A DNA stretch of 64,000 bases from Tetrapyrgos nigripes (Eukaryota; Basidiomycota; Agaricomycetes; Agaricales; Campanellaceae). Below are positions 2,398 through 59,530 of the stretch, piece by piece (position 1 is the stretch's first letter; each line of letters opens with the position of its first letter). The translations under genes were made by a program, and so were the position numbers. The DNA is taken from NCBI GenBank assembly GCA_013368315.1, contig JAACJM010000158.1:124001-188000 (forward strand), written 5' to 3'. Below the pieces are notes generated by a model. That model did no database searches. It saw only the letters and a program-made list of their open reading frames with translations, and was not told the DNA's origin.

Positions 2398-2599
2398 CGT
2401 TTAGTTACAATGTATCTAACTACTGATTGCCTCCACCCATATCTATATATCGGACGTAGTCTTGCCCATAGTTTCGCTGATATTAGTTACATAAGTGACC
2501 AACTTTGTGATGCCTCACCACCATCATCTCGTACTGTATCCCGGCGACAGTAAGTACTTTCCACTTTGGCAAGTATTTTAGGTTTGTATTTGACATATT

Positions 2600-3380
2600 A
2601 ATCTAGGTCTCCTTCTTGAGGTTGCTGCGCCACCCCCTGAAACAACGCCAACTCCTGTTCAGGCTACAGCGGTCGTCGTTCCTGCCATCAGAGAGGTGTC
2701 ACGTCCTTCATCCAGCTCTATGTCTGACACTCCTCCCCCTGCACTTCCGGCTGTAGAGCCCCCATCCTACATTTCAATTTGGGCTGACTCAACCCAAGGA
2801 CAGTCCAAGGTTTATTATGCTTGGAACTATTGTCCGACACCTGAGGAGATCCAGGCGATGTGGCTGGATGATGAGAGGTCGAGTGGCTATGTGGTGTCTC
2901 GAGGAATGAGAATTGGGTTTTTTTGCTCACTGGTGCGTACTCACTAGTATCCCCAATGATAGGTTACTTATACATCTCGCAATATCACTAGGGCGATCGT
3001 AGAGGCACTGACTACTGGTGTCTCTGGAATGTTTCAAAAAAAAGTTTTCACGGTTTGACATGGCGTTGCAGGAATATACACGCGTTCTTTCCGGTGCATC
3101 TCATGTGTATTCTTCCCCAAAAATTCTTCGTGCACCCGGACCCAGCTCTCGCCACCCCCACCCAAACCGACTCTTTTCCCTACATGATCCAGGCCTTCAA
3201 GATCGTGACCTCAAATTCGAAGTTGACAGCCATCAGAATATCCGGGTTTACGCTGCAGTCCCACGGATCACGCATGTTTCGGTAGATACCACTATTTCTG
3301 ATCCACCTGGTGTGGAGGTTTGGGTCCCCGTGAACTCTGCCCCTAGGGTCATCGACATTTCTGATGAGGAGGATGAGTAA
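2600..3380 (+). pseudogene. Viroplasmin/RNase H1 N-terminal-like domain protein with homopolymer frameshift
   Basis: A Pro/Ser-rich leader is followed by SSGYVVSRGMRIGFF, then a GTGCGT...CTAG intron (about 2932-2993), then AIVEALTTGVSGMF and, after an A8 tract at 3036-3043, FSRFDMALQEYTRVL. The order 'YVV.RG...G.F', 'TTGVSG..FKK', 'A...Y' matches the small Cauli_VI/RNase H1 N-terminal fold common in basidiomycete genomes. GVSGMF and FDMALQEY lie in different frames, and the switch falls in the A8 tract, so a one-base indel there probably breaks the gene. The C-terminus ends in an acidic tail (DISDEEDE) at 3380. The call rests on motif resemblance only. Confidence 0.45.
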
Positions 3381-3512
3381 AACGTTTTTGTTCTTAAACT
3401 TGTTAGTCTATCTCAATACTGGACAATGTATAAATACGGCTTGATTGGATAGATAGATTCTGTCAACTCCTATTTGCTATTATCCGAATATCCGCGCCAC
3501 AGTGCCAATCCT

Positions 3513-6500
3513 ATGGGAAAAAAGCGCAAGGTGCCTGCGTTCTTCCATCCTGCAGCAGCCATGCAACACAAATTTGTACTCTCTGAGGACGGTAAACGAA
3601 TCAAGGTATCTGCAAATGAGGTTTTACGGGATCAGCTGCACACTAGCTCACCGCCACTGGGAAGCGACGACGACAACTCAGACGAGGATGATTACCATTT
3701 AGGGAATGAGGGTAATGATGGCTGGGATTGTGATGGCCTTGACTCTCATGAAGGGGAGTGGAACCTTCACAATGAGACTGTTCCATTAGATTCTCGGCTC
3801 AGAGACCTCAGTAGTTCAGAATCACTTGATTCTGCCAAGATCCGAGTGTCTCGCCCATCGTATCTTAGCTCGGTAAGTGATTCAACATCTACCCAGTGTG
3901 TATGTTGAATGTATTGTCAGGATAATCCGAGCCGGGCTTGGCTGGCATACCGTGAGGAGTATCTTGATGCTCTCTTGTGGTTGGAAGGACGGCGGGGCAT
4001 GGGCAAAAAGTGTTATACATGCCGGCTACCGGGCGTTTACAGATGTGTTGAAGATGAGTGCTTTGGAGCAGGCATGTTTTGCGAGAAGTGTATGGTACAT
4101 GCTCATAAAAACTTGCCGCTTCACTGGATCGAGGTAAGTTTTCTATATAGGCCCTTCAATTGTCACTGATTATTATCTTTTTGGCTCAGAAATGGAATGA
4201 TCATTTTTTTGAAGTGAGTACATTGAAGTCGTTAGGACTACGCGTTCAACTCGGACACAATCCTCGCTCCCGTTGCATCAATCCAAAATCAGCCATTCAT
4301 GATGACTTCACTGTTATTCACATCAACGGTGTTCATTCAGTTGCCGTGGATTTCTGTGGCTGTCCAGGTGCAATTGAGGGGTACATGCAGCTTCTTCGAA
4401 GCATGTGGTATCCTGCCACACCCAAGAATCCTCAATCAGCCACGACTTTTTCATGTCTACGCCAGTTCCAGAACTTGAATTGCTTGGGAAAAACTACCAG
4501 TGTGCGACTACTACAAATCTCTGGAGATTATGACACAGAACTGGCAACAAGAGGTACCCAAGGTATTGAATTTCAAATGTTCAGATGATTGCGTTTGTGA
4601 TTGATGATCTAGGGATATAGGACCGCTATCGGCCGCTTCTTCGCAGTGTATATGAATGGAGAAATCTCAAGATGCTGAAGCGCTCGGGCTGCTGTCATGC
4701 AAAGAGTGGGATTGAAGGCACTAAGCGAGGGGAATGTGCCCTGGAATGCCCTGCTTGCCCTCATCCTGGCAAGAACCTACGTGAGGACTGGAAAGAAGCC
4801 GGGCCAGAGTCATCGTAAGTGGAAACCTTCCAGAGACATTGATTTGTAGGTGAGCTTATGTCTACCCATATTGATATATGGGCGCCATCAACAGATTTCT
4901 CTATACTTTGTTTCTTGCAATCGATGCAAACTTCCGGCTGAGAAATCGAGTTGTCTCCAATGAACATAGAAGCCCAATTCTTGGTGACGGGTTTGCTTAT
5001 ATTGTGCCGAGTAGCCCATACAAAGAACATATCAAACAATATGTGGACCAAGAAGATGTACGTTTTTATTCCATGGATATATCTATCTATCTATCTAACT
5101 GGATCTAATTGTTTCCAGATGAGTTCCTGTTCAGGGTTTCAAGCAATGTTCTTGGCAAATCTGCGCAATGTCCAAGGGCTCTGTGTTAGTGGGATGGTCG
5201 GCATTTGCTGTGCTCGACACTGTGTATGGAGGCCATGCAGTTTAGGAGATCTTCAAAAAGGAGAGCGGTGCGTATTTAGAATAGGAGGGTTAGGTCTCAG
5301 CTGATATTCTGCTTGCTAGGTACTGTAACGTGGATTTTGTGTTTTGGTGTACTATCCAAGACACAGAATACCTCGCTGTCGTCATTTCATACGACATCTC
5401 TTGTCAATGGAGTCGGAATTTCTGGAGCCGGATGGCTGCCCTGAACCCTGATTTTCACGCTCGTTTCTCATCAACAGGAGTCCGGTTTCTCGTTCCGAAA
5501 TTCCACCTGCGCGCACATCAACCTCAATGCCACACCCCTTTCAATTTTGACTATGCATCAGGTTGCAGAGAAACTCATGGTGAGGTTATAGAGGAGGGAT
5601 GGGCCCAGTCAAATAAGGCAGCTGCTCAGACAAAGGAGATGGGGCCAGGTACCCGAGCCCAGACGTTGGATGATATTTTCGGTTTTCACAACTTCCGGAA
5701 TATTGCTCATCTTGGTAAGATGTTCAGTTGCTCCTGGGACACTTGTTCGTTGACATGTGCGATAGACGATGTCTTGGCCAAGCGTCTTGTTACTGCTGTT
5801 AAGGAATTTGATCAGCATTATCTCGATTTTCAACAATTTGATGAAGGGCTAGAACAAAATATAGGTCGTGCACAGCTAAATGAATGGAAGGAGCAAATTG
5901 GGAAATGGGAGCAGAATCATGAAGTCGATTGCCCTTACGAGGAGCAGAGCAAAGGTATGTGTGCAAAATTGATTCATTTAATGCACATTGGCATCACTCT
6001 AACGCTGTTCCAGTAAATGATAAAAATCAATTCAAAAGCATGCAAGTCAAAATGGCCGATGAGGAGATGGCATTGTTAAAGGACGGATTAGGGTTGAAAT
6101 ACCCTAGTAGTCCATCAAGTATCTGGTAGAGGAAGGGATTGTGTCGCGAGTTCGTGGTGAGGCAAGGCAGACGTTGTCATGGATTTGGTATGATAGCCAG
6201 ATCTCCAAAGATGATCCCAAATTCAAAGATGGTGAGATTTCCCCTTTTGTGAGGGAATGTATTTCCTAATAAATTGTTTAACAGCGATTCGTGTGGAGTG
6301 GTGCAAGGGCCAGGCACGAATGTTACGGTGGCGTGAGGAGGTCCTGCTGCTGTGTGAAGAACTCTGTCGCATGTCTGCTTATTTCTTATGGAAGTCAGAC
6401 TGGTGGGGGAAGAGATTAATAGGGGAGCCGGAAATGAGGAAACGTGGGAATGGAGATAATGAGGTGGACAATATGATGGGGGAAGCACTAGATGTGTACG

Positions 6501-6682
6501 CATCGCAGCAGCAGAGTTTTCAGCTTCGCTGATCCGCAGATGTTCTTGCCAAGTGGACAGATCTGATTGAGCATGCGAGGGGAGTTATTGATCGTCGTGG
6601 AGATTTGCAGACACTGGATATTGTGCTTGTGGACCCCGACCTGGATGCTGAAGAGATTCGTAGAGCTGAGGAGGACATATAA
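3513..6682 (+). pseudogene. KDZ (Kyakuja-Dileera-Zisupton) transposase with CxC2 cysteine cluster
   Basis: A multi-exon transposase starts at MGKKRKVPAFFHP and is followed by an acidic linker. The CxC2 zinc cluster (KCYTC...CVEDEC...FCEKCMVHAHKNLPLHWIE, about 4005-4130) comes next, then the HSVAVDFCGCPG block (about 4330). The catalytic core reads SYDISCQW (about 5390), FLVPKFHLRAHQPQC (about 5500) and HGEVIEEGWAQSNKA (about 5580), then DDIFGFHNFRN. Introns are short, for example 5954-6014. The C-terminal part (EARQTLSWIWYDSQISK, then AIRVEWCKGQARMLRWREE) continues to 6682. A frame break near 6113 and an in-frame TGA near 6531 suggest it is inactive. KDZ proteins are DDE-type transposases of fungi. 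The termini were not located. Confidence 0.85.
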
Positions 6683-13099: not shown

Positions 13100-13900
13100 T
13101 ATTGATGTTCATATCTCCGAAATATGTCAAAGGGCAAAATTATCATGGCCTGATGATTTGCCATTGAAGTATTTAGTTTCCAGTGGGGAGAAGATATCAG
13201 ATTCTGTATGTGTGCATGCATTTGTCCATTGTTACTTAACAGCTGATGAACTCGATGCAGGTTGCTGACAAAATCAGGCAACCATGACAGTCTCATTCTA
13301 GCGAACTTTTCCCGGTGAGTGATAGTTCTGGTGTTGATATCAGTTCTGTATGCTCATGGACCTTTAGACCAACAGAAGCTATGGTCAGGTGCACCTCTTG
13401 TCAGGTCAAGCTGGGAGATAGAAAGGAAAATGTTGGGAAGCCCTTTACTTTGTGCCAAGTCTATGTTGTAGACTCCTGAATGAACATTGTTCCCAGAGGA
13501 ACTCACAGTGAATTGTGGTAGAGGGGCCACTTGTCAGGCGTGGTTATAACAAACTACCAGAGGTGACGGAAAAGGTCTTTCTGGAGTGGCCTCAACCTGG
13601 ATGTTGGAGTTATAGGACTGGTGATTTAGGTATGTCCTCTTACTCAAGCCAGTTGATGTCGCTGACTGATTCCATTTCCCCAGTATGGTTGATGCCTGAC
13701 AATACCCTGGAGATTATGGGATGATTATGGGAAGGATCGACACCCAAATCAATTTGCATGGGGTGCGAATTGAAAGCGAAGGTATATCAAACATCTTGCA
13801 CAACACATGTTCTGAAACAGTGGACATTTTAATGCTTATTACCAATCATCCTGCATGAACTAGAAGCTAGGCCTCTCTTACCCCTCTCGGCAGTAGTTCT
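13100..13900 (+). pseudogene. NRPS-type adenylation domain fragment (siderophore-synthetase-like)
   Basis: The order of adenylation motifs is clear: WPDDLPLKYLVSSGEKISDS, an intron (about 13207-13260), VADKI, then RPTEAMVRCTS (A5, first residue changed from G), VGKPF, IVPRGT, YNKLPEVTEKVFLEWPQPG, SYRTGDL (A7), an intron with GTATGT/CCCCAG ends (about 13630-13681), MPDNTLEIMG, then GRIDTQINLHGVRIESEGIS (A8). ESEGIS after A8 is typical of fungal ferrichrome-type synthetases. A stop after VVDS, a frameshift near 13510, and changes such as KLRG to NLHG show decay. Only the C-terminal half of the domain is present. Introns are kept, so this is a DNA-level copy. Confidence 0.75.
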
Positions 13901-14171
13901 GACGCTGGGTCGTCTTCTGGGAGAGTTTGACCATCTCTACATTCAGTGAGTGTACATTCTAGTCTTTTCTTTGCCTTTCCTTTGTCTCTGTCTTTGTATG
14001 CGTCTGCATTTCTTGTTCCTCGTCTTTGTATTTTTCCTTTTTCCTTTATTCCTTTCTTTTATTCCAAACCCTCATGCTAACGCTAATGCTAATCCTATCT
14101 ACCTAGTCACTCCTGGCTCGAACCCACCCAATTCTCCTCATTCGGTCCACATGTACCCTCATTACACGTAT

Positions 14172-24104: not shown

Positions 24105-24370
24105 GTGGCACAGGCAACAGTCAAGTCACAGTCAAGCAATGGTCAAGCACTGGGTCAAGCAACATCAAGCAACACTCAAGCAACACTCAAGCAATGGTCA
24201 AGTGACAGATCAAGCAACATCAAGCAACACTCAAGCAACGTCAAGCAACAGTCAAGCAACATCAAGCGACACTCAAGCAACATCAAGCAACAGTCAAGCA
24301 ACATCCAACAACACTTCTCATAGGTCAAGCAACAGTCAAGCAACACTTAAGGGTAAGTTAAGCAACAGTA
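24105..24370 (+). repeat. Minisatellite of TCAAGCAACA-type units
   Basis: About two dozen copies of a roughly 9-11 bp unit, TCAAGCAACA with variants (TCAAGCAATGG, TCAAGCAACACT, TCAAGCAACAG), follow each other. A shorter run of the same unit is at about 23115-23180, so the motif was present twice before or after a local duplication. Open frames over the array (Ser/Asn/Gln-rich) are artefacts of the repeat. Confidence 0.8.
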
Positions 24371-37212: not shown

Positions 37213-37375
37213 CAAGGATGTAGCAAGGATGTAGCCAGGGATGTAGCAAGGATGTAGCAAGGATGTAGCAGCAAGGATGTAGCAAGGACATAGCAAAGAT
37301 GTACATAGCAAGGACGTAGCAAGAATGTAGCAAGGGCAAGAATGTAGCAAGAATGTAGCAAGGATATTGCAGAGC
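37213..37375. repeat. Minisatellite of AAGGATGTAGC units
   Basis: About a dozen copies of an 11-bp unit AAGGATGTAGC with small changes (AAGAATGTAGC, AAGGACGTAGC). The opposite strand reads as an artificial SLLHPCYILAT repeat. It lies just outside the KDZ gene start. Confidence 0.75.
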
Positions 37376-37748
37376 AGAAGGCGATGAAGATGCAGTGAGA
37401 GAGGATGTAGCAGTAGTCAGAATGACATAACAGGTTAAGACATGGAAATGTGGGCCATTGCTGGCCTTTTGAAGCAGCAGCTGCCATCAACTGTGATCAA
37501 ACTGTGTCACTGAGCTTTGAGTCTGAATTCCAGCCAAACAGCAGATGTCACCAGTAGCAAAAGTATTCCTAACTGGTGGACAATTTTAGCATAGCCACAC
37601 AGCAAATGGTGGGTTTGTAAGAACAAGTCTCTTAAAAGGGCCTTGTAACTTCACATTGAGAACTTCAACAAGGCAGAACAAATTATTTAGACTCTACTTT
37701 ACCAAGCTACAACTGTATATGGGTAACATTAGATCAATTAACATCATA
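37376..37748. other. Flank between minisatellite and fold-back element
   Basis: No gene is seen. AAAGGGCCTTGTAACTTC near 37636 resembles the small repeat at 28.5 and 32.5 kb. The last bases (ATA, 37746-37748) are the left copy of the putative 3-bp target duplication. Confidence 0.35.
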
Positions 37749-38356
37749 CACTGGAGGCAAATCCCTGTAAATCATCTGCCATACAGAGGTATTACAGTGA
37801 CCTTACAACAAGTCATTCAATAAGTAATCCACCTTGTATTACAGATGTATTACAGAGAGAAGAATTTTTCAGAGCAATGACAGGTCGTGTTACAGGGACA
37901 TTTCAGAGGGCAAATCCCTGTAGATCCGGTGCCCTACATAAATATTACAGAGAGAAGAAATTTTCAGAGCAATGCTGTAAGACTGCTGTAAGACAAGTTG
38001 GATTACAGGAACATTTCAGAGTGACATGGTGTCACAGTAATGCATTGGGTAATACAGCCAAGAAATACAGAGGTATTTCAGTGTGACAAGAAGTCACAGT
38101 ATATCTTCCAGTAATTCAAGTCAGTATTACAAAGGATTTACAACATTCAAGTATACAGTAAATCTACAATGATGGCAAACATTTTACAGGAGACTTACTA
38201 TGACATTTCAGTCACAGTAATATTGGGGTAAGTCAGCCAGGATTACTGAAACATTACAACAAAAAGGAAAGAATATATCTGAAAAATTAAATGTATTGAT
38301 GGAAAATATATAATGTCACATTTGGGTGACAGTAAGAGAACTGGATGCTTGGACAC

Positions 38357-39185
38357 ACTCTGCATGCACCCCCCCCAGACACAACTTGTGCACACCACTG
38401 TGGATGCAACCTGTGCGCACCATGGACGAAACTTGCATGCACTCTGGACACAACCTGTGTGCACTCCAGACACAACTTGTGTGCACTTTGGATGCAACCT
38501 GCATGCACTCTAGACGCAACCTGCATGCACTCGCACTCTGGACACAACCTGTGGGCACTCTGGATGCAACCTGCATGCTCTCTGGACACAACCTGCATGC
38601 ACCATGGATGCAACTTGCGTGCACTCTGGATGCAACCTGCACACACCCTGGATGCAACCTGCGCACACTCTGGATGCAACCTGTGTGCACCATGGATGCA
38701 ACTTGGGGGGCACACTCCAGACGCAACCTGCACACACTCCAGATGCAACCTGTGCACACTCCAGATGCAACTTGCATGCACTCTGGACACAACATGTGTG
38801 CACTCAGGACAGAACCTGTATGCACTCTGGATACAACCTGTGCACACTCCAGATGCAACCTGCATGCACTCTGGACACAACCTGGGTGCACCATGGACGT
38901 AACTTGCACACACTCTGGATGCAACCTGGGTGCACTCCAGATGCAACTTGCACACACTCTGGATACAACCTGTGCGCACTCTGGAGGCAACCTGTGTGCA
39001 CTCTGGATGCAACCTGGATGCACCCCAGGCACAACTTGTGCACACTCTGGATGCAACCTGCTTGCACCCCAGATGCAACTTGTGTGCAGTCTGGATGCAA
39101 CCTGTGTGCACCCTGGACACAACCTGCGTGCACTCTGGACGCAACCTGTGTGCACCCTGGGCCCAACTTGCATGCACTCTGGATG
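38357..39185 (+). repeat. 22-bp tandem array, forward arm
   Basis: About 38 units by length. The unit is CACTCTGGATGCAAC plus CTGTGTG with many C/T and G/A variants. Reading frames stay open in several frames on both strands only because the unit has no stop in those phases (22 is not a multiple of 3). Cys/His/Thr-rich 'proteins' here are artefacts. Confidence 0.9.
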
Positions 39186-40255
39186 AGTGTGCACAAGTTG
39201 CGTCTGGAGTGAGCACAGGTTGTGTCCAGAGTGTGTGCAAGTTGCATCCAGAGTGTGCGCAAGTTGTGTCCATGGTGCGCGTGTGGAGGTTGCATCCAGA
39301 GTGCATGCAAGTTGTGTCTGGAGTGTGTCCAGAGAGCACACAGGTTGTGTCCATGGTGTGCGCAGGTTGTGTCCAGAGTGCGTGGAGGTTGCATCCAGAG
39401 TGCACGCAAGTTGCGTCTGGAGTGCGCACAGGTTGCATCCAGAGTGCGCACAGGTTGCATCCATGATGTGCGCAGGTTGTGTCCAGAGAGCGCGCAGGTT
39501 GTTGTGTCCAGAGAGCATGCAGGTTGCGTCCATGGTGTGCACAGGTTGCATCCAGAGTGTGCATCCAGAGTGTGTGCAAGCTGTGTCTGTGGTGCACACA
39601 GGTTGCATCCAGAGTGTGTGCAAATTGTGTCTGGAGTCCAGGGTGGGTGGGTGCAGGTTGCGTCCAGAGTGTGCCCAAGTTGCGTCCAGGGTGCGCACAG
39701 GTTGTTTCCAGATCCAGAGTGCATGCAAGTTGCGTTCAGAGTGTGCGCAAGTTGTGTCCATGGTGCATGCAGGTTGTGTCCAGGGTGCACACAGGTTGCG
39801 TCCAGAGTGCATGCAGGTTGCATCCAGAGTGTGCGCAAGTTGTGTCTGGGGTGCATCCAGGTTGCATCCAGAGTGTGCACAAGTTGCCTCTGAAGTGTCC
39901 ACAGGTTGCATCCAGAGTTTGTGCAAGTTGCATCTGGAGTGCACACAGGTTGCATCCAGAGTGTGCGCAGGTTGCGTCCAGAGTGCATGCAAGTTGTGTC
40001 CATGGTGTGTGCAGGTTGCATCCAGAGTGCACACAAGTTGTGTCTGGAGTGTGCACAGGTTGCATCCAGAGTGTGTGCAGGTTGTGTCCAGAGTGTGCGC
40101 AAGTTGCATCTGGAGTGCGTGCAGGTTGCATCCAGAGTGCACACAAGTTGTGTCTGGAGTGCATGCAAGTTGTATCCAGAGTGCATGGAAGTTGTGTCCA
40201 TAGTGCACACAGGTTGCATCCACAGTGGTGTGTGCAAGTTGTGTCTGGGGGGGTG
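39186..40255 (-). repeat. 22-bp tandem array, inverted arm
   Basis: About 49 units by length of the same repeat in reverse orientation (CAGGTTGCATCCAGAGTG plus CACA), meeting the forward array head-to-head at about 39186. The arrays differ in unit number, so they have expanded or shrunk independently since the palindrome formed. Confidence 0.9.
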
Positions 40256-40804
40256 CATGCCAGTTCTCTTACTGTCACCCAAATGTGACATTATATATTT
40301 TCCATCAATACATTTAATTTCAGATATATTCTTTCCTTTTTGTTGTAATGTTTCAGTAATCCTGGCCGACTTACCCCAATATTACTGTGACTGAAATGTC
40401 ACAGTAAGTCTCCTGTAAAATGTTTGCCATCACTGCAGATTTACTGTATACTTGAATGTTGTAAATCCTTTGTAATACAGACTTGAATTACTGGAAGATA
40501 TACTGTGACTTCTTGTCACACTGAAATACTTCTATATTTCTTGGCTGTATTACCCAATGTATTACTGTGACACCATGTCACTCTGAAATGTTCCTGTAAT
40601 CCAACTTGTCTTACAGCATTGCTGTAATACCTATGTAGGGCACTCTCTGAAATGTCTTACAGCAGTCTTACAGCATTGCTCTCAAAAATTCTTCTCTCTG
40701 TAATACATCTGTAATACAAGATGGATTACTTATTGAATGACTTGTTGTAAGGTCACTGTAATACCTCTGTATGGCAGATGATTTACAGGGATTTGCCTCC
40801 AGTG

Positions 40805-41625
40805 ATACATCATGACCAAGATCACTGGGTGCATAGATACTGGAGTTATTGTCTGATATCTCTTCATCAGGTTCCACTGAGTCAACCACTGTCTGCTTTT
40901 TGGTATGCCTTCTGGCACGCTTGCCTTCAAGACATATGTTAGAAAGATATATTGTCAAGAAAAATGAATCACATACCACTGAGTTGCAGACTTTTGAGCA
41001 CCTGGTTGACCACAGTATTCAATGAAAACCCATTGGAAACTCCAACAACAATGACCTGGGCCTTGGGCTTTGAGAGGCTTTTGTGCTTCTTCTTGGCAGT
41101 AACCACTGGAGGGTTGTCACAGGTGGTTTCAGCAGCAAGGTGGGCAGCCTTGACTGGGTAGAGGAGATGGGCAGTTGAGTTGCACAAACGAGCCTACATT
41201 TAAGAATGACAGTAAGGGTGATGAATAGATTACAAATAGAAAAAAATGACATACCAATACTTGAGGGTTTTGGGAGATATGTGGACTGTGGTGGGGTCGA
41301 GTAGGTGTTTCAACAATCTTCACATCAGTGGTAGACTCTGCCTCTGAAGTGTCTGCAGGTGTCAGGGTGGGAGGGCGTGGAATGATGTCAGAATTCTCAC
41401 TCATTTTGTCTGCAAGGGCATCAATGGTGGCAAATAGGGTGTGGAGATGGGTCCATGGTCTGGGGAAAGGTAAGGCAGGTGATGGAAGATGCTGCAATAA
41501 AAGACAATGGCTTAACAGGATAGACAAAGACACAAAATCACAGAACTCACTAAACCTTGCAATGTTGAAGACAAAACCTTCACTTGTTGAGAGGGAACAC
41601 ACTTTTCACCTGTCAGTGGCACCAT
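40805..41625 (-). pseudogene. Hypothetical gene interrupted by the fold-back element
   Basis: The start at 41625 (MVPLTGEKCVPSQQVKV) is followed by an intron (GTGAGTTC...TTGCAG), then LPSPALPFPRPWTHLHTLF, LADKMSENSDIIPRPPTLTP, a GTATGTC intron, VTAKKKHKSLSKPKAQVIVV, another intron, and RARRHTKKQTVVDSVEPDEE with SSIYAPSDLGHDV, where the element begins. It is Ser/Pro/Lys-rich with a basic middle and an acidic end, and may be nuclear. No family is recognised. The 3' continuation would be left of 37746, but no matching frame is evident. Confidence 0.45.
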
Positions 41626-56794: not shown

Positions 56795-59530
56795 CCATGG
56801 AAGTGCTTCAAGACAGCAGTGGACTCTGTACCAGGTCTGGTACCGTGATCCTGACGTGGTCATCGCCAATATCCTTTCGAATCCCGACTTTGCCAAAGAA
56901 TTTGATGTCGCACTCTACGTCCACTTGGACAAGAATGGAAAGTGATGATGGAGTGATTTTATGACGGGTAATTATGCCTGGCGGCATGCGGTACGTCTTT
57001 TTCCCCTCTCTTTGACCACATTATCCTTATATGTACCACACATCAGACTCAGATATATGAGGACAACCCAACCACGCAAGGTGCCATGTACTGCCCAGTT
57101 ATCTTGGGTGCTGACAAGACTACTGTTTCTGTCGGTACTGGCCACATTGAATACCACCCCCTCTACCTCTCCATTGGTAATCTTTGCAACAGTGTACGTC
57201 AGGGCCATCGCAATGGGGTCATTCTGATAGGTTTTCTGGCTACTCCAAAGTGTATGTATTATCTCCGCATACAAATACATACTCTCACTGACACAAGGGC
57301 AGCTGACAGGCGTTATGATAATGATCCCAAATTCCGGCTCTTCAAGAAGCAGCTATACCACTCCTCGCTGAGTGCAATTCTCAGCTCGCTTCAGCCAGGG
57401 ATGACAGTTCCAGTAGTTCGCTGTTGCCCAGACAGCCACTTTCGCCGAGTTGTCTATGACCTCGGTGCTTTCATTGCCAACTATCCCGAGCAAGTCTACT
57501 TGTCAGGCGTAGTGCAGGGTTGGTGTTCTAGGTAATTATCCTGTGCTGTTTATTCTCTTTCAGGTCACTTAATTATTTACTTCGCAGGTGCAGAGCACCA
57601 GCACCAAATCTTGATGAAAGCGCTCCTCAGTGTTCACGTCATTTAGACACAGTGTTCCTTCAACAGTATGAGGATGACGGGACTGTGCTTTGGGATAATT
57701 TTGGGATGGATCAAGGTGTCAAAGTCAGTTTTTTTACTTCATGTGCAGTTCGGTCACTGACCGTAATTTTAGCCTTTCACAACAGACTTTCCCCGAGCAG
57801 ACATCCACGAGATAATGTCAGCAGATTTATTACATCAAGTCATCAAGGGATGCTTCAAGGACATGCTCGTTGACTGGTGCTTTGAGTACCCGGTTCTCAA
57901 GCATGGTGAGGAAGCAGCTGACCAAATTATGGACAATATTGATTACCGGTGAGTGTTGTGCACAATTAGACCATGTAGCTACAACTAAGATTTGTCGTAC
58001 AGTATTGCTGCTGTTCCACCGTTTCCTGGTCTTCAGAGGTTCCCTCATGGGCGGCGTTTCAAGCAGTGGATGGGAGATGATTCCAAAGTGTTGATGAAGG
58101 TGAGTATCACTAATTCCTTGATATATTTTTGATTAGCTCACTATCGGATATCAGGTGTTCATGGCCGCTGTCGCTGAGTATCTACCACCGGAGATGATGA
58201 GATGCTTGTCGTCACTCCTTGATTTTTGCTACCTTGTCCAGCGGTCTGATATCGACGAAGCGGCATTGCAGCAAATTAAAGCCTCTATTAGTCACTTCCA
58301 TCACTTTCGTCAAATCTTCATCACAACCAATGTCTGTGAAGACTTCTCGCTCCCTCATCTACACTCCATGGTTCATTACTCCCTTCTCATCATGGAGTTT
58401 GGTGCCCCCAATGGTCTATGTTCCACAATCACTGAGTCAAGACACATCACTGCTGTGAAGAAACCCTGGCATCAGTCAAATCGCTGGCAGGCTATCAAAT
58501 GTTGTTGATCAATCAACGCATTGACAAACTCCTTGCCTTACGCGCTGACCTGGTGGAGCGAGGGCTTCTTCTACCATTACACCAGCCGCTTCTGGATCCA
58601 TTTGACGTAGAGTCAGATGATGTTGGTGCTGCAGATGGGGATTGTGTCCCCTCTGACGTTGTCCTGGCTAAGACACGTGGTAAGCCTGCATATTCTTTTT
58701 GTGTCCTTTTTTGCTCTAATACTGTCTGCAGCGAGAGCGTATCCCTGATACGTTGACGAACTGGCAGAGCATATTGGACAGCCTCTCCTTCCGGTCCTTG
58801 TACAACAGTTTCTTGATGAACAAGAAGCTGGTACCGACTTCTCAGTCACGTCGTCACAATTCTCGGTGTTTCCTTCTGCTGTGGCGACGTTTTATGCACC
58901 AAGCGATATCTCTGGCATTCGTGGCATGATGCGTGAACACATTCGCTCGACACCATCATGGCGTGGTCATGCACGCTATGACACCGTTCTTGTTGTCACA
59001 AACTTGAACAGACCGGGACTTAGAGGTATGAGTGTGGCTCGTGTGCTTCTTTTCTTTTCTTTCAAATTTGGAGATACTGTATATCCTTGCACTCTTATTC
59101 ATTGGTTCAACGCCTTTGGTTGATGACCAGATCCCAACACGGGTATGTGGATTGTAAGACCAGCTTATCGTAATCATCGTTATGAGACCCCGTCAGTGGC
59201 CGTTATTCATTTAGATACTATTCTTAGAGGAGTACACTTGCTACCTGTCTATGGACCTAATCCCATTCCCCCAAACCTTCACTATAGCCTCTCTCTGGAT
59301 GTGTTTAATGCGTTCTATGTAAATAAGTATGCAGATCATCACGCGAATGAAATTATCTTCTGACGAGTTACAATTTGACCCTTTCTATACATCCTATACA
59401 TATCTAAAAGTCTATACATTTCGTGTATAGAGCCAATCCGACAGAATTAGTATGAATCTGTATGGGATGGTATGGTAACTATACTCACTATACCTTCCAT
59501 GCAGTTTATACATCTGTGATTTTGCTGATG

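Follow-up and report, generated by a model that had tools for sequence, protein, structure and literature searches.

The 64,000-nucleotide stretch of Tetrapyrgos nigripes DNA analysed here (contig JAACJM010000158.1, positions 124,001 to 188,000; G000:C155:124001-188000 in our coordinates, hereafter the window) contains an inverted-repeat element of 3,056 bp at positions 37749-40804. The element opens with the terminal inverted repeat tip CACTGGAGGCAAATCCCTGT (37749..37768, plus strand) and closes with its exact reverse complement (40785..40804, minus strand); both tips are seen in the sequence and in genome-wide end matches. The flanks read ATCATA to the left and ATACAT to the right, so that ATA stands at both edges (37746..37748 and 40805..40807) as a 3-bp target site duplication. 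The CACTGG and CCAGTG ends and the paired ATA, which an initial annotation of this DNA had pointed out, can thus be read directly at 37749 and 40804.

The interior is built from two arms and two minisatellite arrays. The left arm, 592 bp long and carrying subterminal (A)TTACAG words (37749..38340, plus strand), was delimited from the sequence, the bounds of a hidden Markov model (HMM) and word counts; the right arm is an inverted copy of it, 559 bp long (40246..40804, minus strand), delimited from the sequence, the HMM bounds and alignments. Between them lie 38.4 units of a 22-bp repeat in the orientation GGACGCAACCTGCGCGCACTCT (38341..39184, plus strand) and 48.2 units in the reverse orientation (39185..40245, minus strand). 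In the wrap-around HMM the arrays abut at 39184/39185 with no middle domain between them, and Tandem Repeats Finder (TRF), which is independent of the HMM, reports period 22 at 38396-39183, 39185-39272 and 39327-40227. The initial annotation had estimated arms of about 550-600 bp and opposed arrays of about 38 and 49 units meeting near 39186, and the measurements agree with it. A short open reading frame on the minus strand (40668-40979) spans the right junction, which does not by itself establish the split of a hypothetical gene at 40805 suggested in the initial annotation. Just left of the element, and separate from it, is an 11-bp tandem repeat resembling CAAGGATGTAG (37213-37372).

The window arms are 96.0% identical, ungapped, over their terminal 700/630 bp, first array units included, and 97.8% identical in a multiple alignment of the arms alone; several indels separate left from right. 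Each arm holds five forward copies of ATTACAG, whereas 300 dinucleotide shuffles of the left arm gave 0.20 on average and at most 2, in keeping with the ATTACAG richness noted in the initial annotation. The shorter word TTACAG occurs forward seven times in the left arm and six times in the right, against 0.41 expected from dinucleotide shuffles of the left arm. Counted in both senses, the left arm has seven forward and three reverse copies, i.e., direct as well as inverted subterminal words are present. The earlier description of the whole as one nearly complete palindrome holds for the ends and arms but not for the inner part, since the two arrays are only about 73% alike and do not form one clean palindrome. 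Their mirror score was matched by 0 of 200 single-unit shuffles and 1 of 200 block shuffles; reversing the unit order of one array still gave 110, against 123 for the real order. The in-register mirror signal between the arrays is therefore weak, and the simple shuffles overstated the symmetry. Long inverted arms with tandem sub-repeats and little or no middle domain are nevertheless what defines a fold-back element structurally, and this is the form observed here.

To place this copy in its genome, the 98.46-Mb, 587-contig assembly was searched. The 20-bp end has 143 forward and 145 reverse matches at three or fewer mismatches, against 1 and 0 for a reversed control, which answers the earlier suggestion that other copies with the same ends be sought. 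A search with the first 300 bp, in which 40 of 231 candidates were scored, gave 107 matches, and 20 places were taken from them as a sample. In the stretches examined, 12 of these are two-ended, one (L012) was completed with one more stretch to a larger element, here called A, and seven show one end only (L010, L014, L016, L017, L021, L022 and L025). Together with the window copy, the 14 two-ended copies represent 11 independent insertions. L020 duplicates L019 and L026 duplicates L023, with 0 substitutions, gaps of 1 bp and 23 bp in total, and surroundings at 99.5%; L009 and L013 look like one insertion duplicated on contig C33. L017 and L010 have family arms, and no 22-bp array was found in the stretch examined.

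Exact 3-bp duplications flank 10 of the 11 insertions: ATA (window), TAT (A), AGA, CCA, ATT, CGT, ATA, TTA, ACT and AGA. A match of this kind is expected by chance in about 1 in 64 insertions, and the CACTA-type duplication that had been proposed for the window copy holds for these 10. The last right-hand base is altered in two copies (CCAGTA in L011, CCAGTC in L028). To look for empty sites, the two flanks of each insertion were fused with a single duplicate between them and compared with the genome. Paralogous empty sites, which are repeats and not alleles, were found for 8 of the 11 insertions (A, L009, L011, L015, L018, L019, L023 and L024). Four are of equal length to the query: L015 (150/150 at 97%), L023 (151/151 at 99%), L019 (150/150 at 96%) and L024 (149/149 at 95%); examples are C259:44312-44461 (150 bases, 97%) and C31:458993-459143 (151 bases, 99%). 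The matches for A cover 166-175 bases per 151 of query and that for L009 161 per 156, with small extra stretches within, and L018 gave no match in a first search and many in a second. The element in the window therefore belongs to a real, large and dispersed transposon family.

One member carries a transposase gene. Element A (C34:14467-29856) is 15,390 bp long, has TAT on both flanks and ends of 875 bp that are 95% alike. The genome holds 117 matches to Transposase_21 (PF02992), one of which (C34:24887-25273) lies inside A. The tnp2 frame of A matches PF02992 at 1.6e-18, with a sub-threshold DUF4218 in the adjoining frame; its best public relatives are 48-56% identical over that frame, one of them named as Candolleomyces aberdarensis, and PF02992 is present in the 120 listed of 574 public relatives. 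A also contains the 22-bp unit: inside its left arm stand four alternating blocks of 21.9, 20.8, 16.3 and 25.1 units, and just inside its right arm 8.4 units. A nested CACTGGGTGC-ended element probably occupies about 2521-6608 of A, with no matching duplication, and in it TRF finds 48 copies of a 9-bp CCTCGTCTG-like unit. No other end pair with a 3-bp duplication was found around the tnp2 gene of A, either for CACT(A/G) ends at 10 or more of 16 positions or for CAC..GTG ends at 10 or more of 14, a search in which 3 of 20 shuffles gave such a pair. At 5776-6484 of L012 (about 13309-14017 of A), rightward open reading frames with an acidic end run antisense to tnp2 and possibly encode a second element protein.

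The arrays vary in length and orientation from copy to copy. Leaving A aside, they make up 48-83% of the length of the remaining 13 copies, with up to 244 units in one block, and L018 has a middle stretch of 880 bp. The P orientation comes first in the window copy, A, L009, L011, L013, L015, L018, L023, L024 and L026 and the M orientation in L019, L020, L027 and L028, so the orientation of the arrays relative to the arms is variable; alternating blocks occur in A, L015, L023 and L026. Change within the arrays shows in the duplicated insertion L009/L013, whose two copies differ by 17 gaps, five of them exactly 22 bp. Genome-wide, the 22-bp unit has 5,873 matches at one mismatch or fewer, against 0 for a control.

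The units also show decay at CpG. Their CpG positions carry 14-41% transitions, compared with 0.2-8% at other C/G positions and 2-9% at A/T; in the window arrays the values are 41% versus 7% at other C/G, and in L027 14% versus 0.2%. As the unit-aligning HMM was set to tolerate CpG transitions, the absolute figures depend on that setting. The arms of the window copy have an observed/expected CpG ratio of 0.08 and its arrays one of 0.25; for the L027 arrays the ratio is 0.86, and for the remainder of the window 0.47. We infer that this decay is the expected trace of methylation-linked C-to-T change, and a targeting of CpG resembling repeat-induced point mutation (RIP) may also account for it.

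In a tree of 30 arms, in which the bootstrap was not settled, both arms cluster within the window copy, A, L019 and L027, and arms of two types occur in L009, L011, L013, L015, L018 and L023. The clustering suggests homogenisation of arms within some copies. It stays a suggestion because, by plain identity, each arm of A is nearer to the L016 arm, at 97.3 and 97.7%, than the two are to one another, at 95.5%.

The CACTG ends, together with the duplicated 3 bp and the repeats in subterminal position, agree with a CACTA/EnSpm transposon, and we consider it probable, at roughly 85%, that the window feature is a non-autonomous CACTA/EnSpm element with fold-back architecture that is moved in trans. 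The CACTA-mobilised fold-back family proposed in the initial annotation is supported by shared ends, duplications and empty sites and, more moderately, by one tnp2-bearing member; neither of the two conditions named there as refuting it holds at the level of the family. A tnp2-type transposase supplied in trans would cut at the CACTG ends, insert the element and duplicate 3 bp, and the TTACAG-rich arms would provide the subterminal recognition region. According to PMC2613891, maize TNPA recognises subterminal repeats, and a soybean motif includes AATCTTACAG; the TTACAG words resemble the latter, a 6-bp likeness that can be taken as a lead only. The 22-bp block may once have been a subterminal tandem repeat whose limit on length was lost in coding-free copies, after which the array would grow, shrink and flip through slippage, unequal exchange or template switching. 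The CpG-rich arrays would then be methylated by the host and decay by C-to-T change.

Several observations weigh against this interpretation. The link to the tnp2 transposase is moderate and draws on one element, because no other copy of this kind was seen and comparable elements have passenger genes: tnp2 is present in only one family member read, a KDZ transposase gene rides as a passenger in the family pair C37:383130-400388, and a sister-family tnp2 within a 23.9-kb end pair seemingly belongs to a smaller unit that recurs at C27 and C107. In the list of 100 ends, 36 neighbouring pairs span about 212 kb (added by hand), and if the 117 PF02992 matches were spread evenly over the genome, about 0.25 would be expected inside these pairs by chance. 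The nearest other tnp2 genes, 83-86% identical in amino acids, are at C139, C11, C405, C32 and C2, and no exact family end lies near tnp2 on C2, C11, C32 or C139 among the ends listed, which extend to C308 and so do not cover C405. The interior of A was absent from all array copies, matching only tnp2 loci among the loci examined, so a derivation of the array copies from A is not demonstrated. When other interiors were examined for a second transposase, one open reading frame each of L014, L016, L017 and L021 had no Pfam match, and one of L022 has a Helitron domain that lies outside the arrays. At the level of the insertions, L009 and L013 have no matching duplication (GTG and ATG versus CTG), and 12 of the 17 gaps between these two copies are of lengths other than 22 bp. 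Finally, the search for an empty site, successful for the family, failed for the window copy as well as for L027 and L028 (40 of 193 and 40 of 131 candidates scored). The window query matched nothing but the two flanks of that copy, and the queries for L027 and L028 matched just one flank of the copy itself, the left and the right respectively; the left flank of the window copy had no other scored match within about its last 100 bases.

A second tnp2-bearing element was considered at C96:175439-199366, which has TGT on both sides, and was dropped. Its tnp2 region has 4.2-kb counterparts at C27 and C107 with 99.5-99.6% identity, while 81-base probes taken from C96 3.07 kb to the left and 2.7 kb to the right of tnp2 found no match in 181-base stretches of C107 at the same offsets, a comparison in which an indel of more than about 100 bp would likewise hide a match. 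The candidate was rejected because the tnp2 region is shared with C27 and C107 and the flanking probes differ from C107.

Among the alternatives, the one that fares best is the idea that the arrays are functional, i.e., that the 22-bp units bind a TNPA-like protein and that long arrays are selected for mobilisation or escape from silencing. This is conceivable, if doubtful. It agrees with the 22-bp arrays just inside both arms of the transposase-bearing A, with the role of subterminal repeats as cis-determinants of transposition in maize (PMC2613891), and with the proposal of the authors who described the Drosophila element Tetris that extra binding sites in fold-back repeats lead to more transposition (PMC4079207). 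The inconsistent orientation of the arrays relative to the arms and the decay of the units at CpG argue against it. So do the many end pairs of the sister CACTGGAAGC type that, judged by end positions only, are separated by about 550 bp, a span with too little room for long arrays, which makes arrays seem dispensable for that type.

Mobilisation by a Plavaka-type, KDZ or other transposase instead of tnp2/CACTA appears improbable. Such enzymes are plentiful in this genome, with 163 Plavaka and 173 KDZ matches, the passenger on C37 being one of the latter, and PlavakaB is described as able to make 3-bp duplications (PMC12730594). The same source gives CATCA..TGATG as the ends of PlavakaB, CATCA or TGT as Plavaka termini, and duplications of 8 bp for Zisupton and 7 bp for Kyakuja, whereas the present family combines CACTG..CAGTG with 3 bp and shows neither Plavaka terminus. 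Equal or near-equal scoring copies of the C37 KDZ gene occur on C70, C162 and C117, as expected of a nested element, and the transposase gene inside A is tnp2.

Even less probable is that the arrays are a captured host satellite carried along by the transposon, for which a parallel exists in CACTA elements of Chenopodium quinoa that hold an array of a 171-bp satellite (PMC8978399). Against it, 87 of the first 100 exact unit words in the list sit between exact family ends or beside one; the remaining 13 form the single cluster without a listed exact end, at C2:1045388-1049416. That cluster consists of opposed 22-bp blocks and is either an altered-end copy or a free array. Lastly, that the palindrome arose locally by inverted duplication without transposition would accord with the missing empty site of the window copy and the clustering of its arms in the tree, but given the ATA flanks, the 288 genome ends and the empty sites for 8 of 11 insertions it is highly improbable, and shared ends and empty sites reject it for the family.

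The fold-back family has relatives in the same genome. Sister ends that read CACTGG(not A)NGCAAANNNNTGTAAATC number 85 and 82 on the two strands, against 0 in the control, and a looser third pattern (1 mismatch, overlapping the first two types) gives 383 and 382 against 1 and 0. Among the ends listed, those of the CACTGGAAGC type often stand about 550 bp apart. Ends of the form CACTGGAAGCAAATCCCTGTAA occur on many contigs in pairs of about 550 bp, apparently a short family of miniature inverted-repeat transposable elements (MITEs) related to these elements. The C96 pair (L051-L061) is itself a 23.9-kb sister element of the CACTGGGTGC family, in which probes located oppositely oriented 9-bp CCTCGTCTG-like repeats, about 3 kb inward of its left end and about 2 kb inward of its right. 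This suggests that related families built fold-backs around other minisatellites. It is tempting, and distinctly speculative, to extend this to a scheme in which sister CACTG families each became fold-backs around a different CpG-rich minisatellite (the 22-bp unit here, the 9-bp CCTCGTCTG-like unit in the CACTGGGTGC family), CACTA subterminal repeats repeatedly yielding mobile inverted satellites with host methylation, and in which a DNA-binding protein encoded by the element may coevolve with the unit. Elsewhere in the window are about 21 copies of another 11-bp tandem repeat, GCAACAGTCAA (24114-24345), a KDZ match (5318-5692) and a stop-ridden Plavaka transposase match (57041-57880).

Mutator is the superfamily to which most fold-back elements are assigned, Galileo being one of the exceptions (PMC4079207). 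A fungal fold-back family of CACTA type, if true, would mean that this architecture arose again in another superfamily, and its many copies make internal minisatellite growth, inversion and methylation-linked decay traceable from copy to copy. The earlier remark that such a family is perhaps not described in mushrooms agrees with our searches: no basidiomycete family of this design appears in the titles or abstract beginnings of open-licence PubMed Central papers, a scope that leaves subscription papers and Repbase outside.

Among known systems, the family is close to CACTA/EnSpm elements (En/Spm, Tam1, soybean Tgmt* and EnSpm of Puccinia striiformis), which are described with CAC..GTG termini, 3-bp duplications and subterminal repeats, the ends and duplications of the rust elements being given in PMC12730594; here one member also holds a tnp2 transposase gene, whose link to the family is moderate. 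Unlike Tgmt*, for which a 13-bp terminal inverted repeat is reported (PMC2613891), the present arms are about 0.3-0.7 kb long. In architecture the family resembles Drosophila fold-backs such as Tetris, with long inverted arms that hold tandem sub-repeats in varying number, no evident coding capacity, and rearranged forms. Tetris, which its authors tentatively assign to Mutator, has sub-repeats of about 220 bp and duplications of 8-10 bp (PMC4079207); the unit here is 22 bp, and the duplication is 3 bp instead of the 8-10 bp of the Mutator type. Galileo is likewise fold-back-like, and the tandem repeats of its terminal inverted repeats hold extra transposase binding sites (PMC4079207), but its transposase is of the P superfamily, not CACTA. 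Satellite arrays inside CACTA elements are also known from Jozin of Chenopodium, for which tandem repeats mirrored at the two termini and an array of a 171-bp satellite are described (PMC8978399); unlike the fungal family, Jozin is a plant element in which that satellite lies near the 3' end of Transposase_21-coding elements. What sets the Tetrapyrgos family apart from known CACTA/EnSpm elements is its minisatellite blocks in opposed orientation, with as many as 244 units: it is a known kind of transposon, probably CACTA/EnSpm, in an unusual form, with long mirror ends around an opposed CpG-rich minisatellite.
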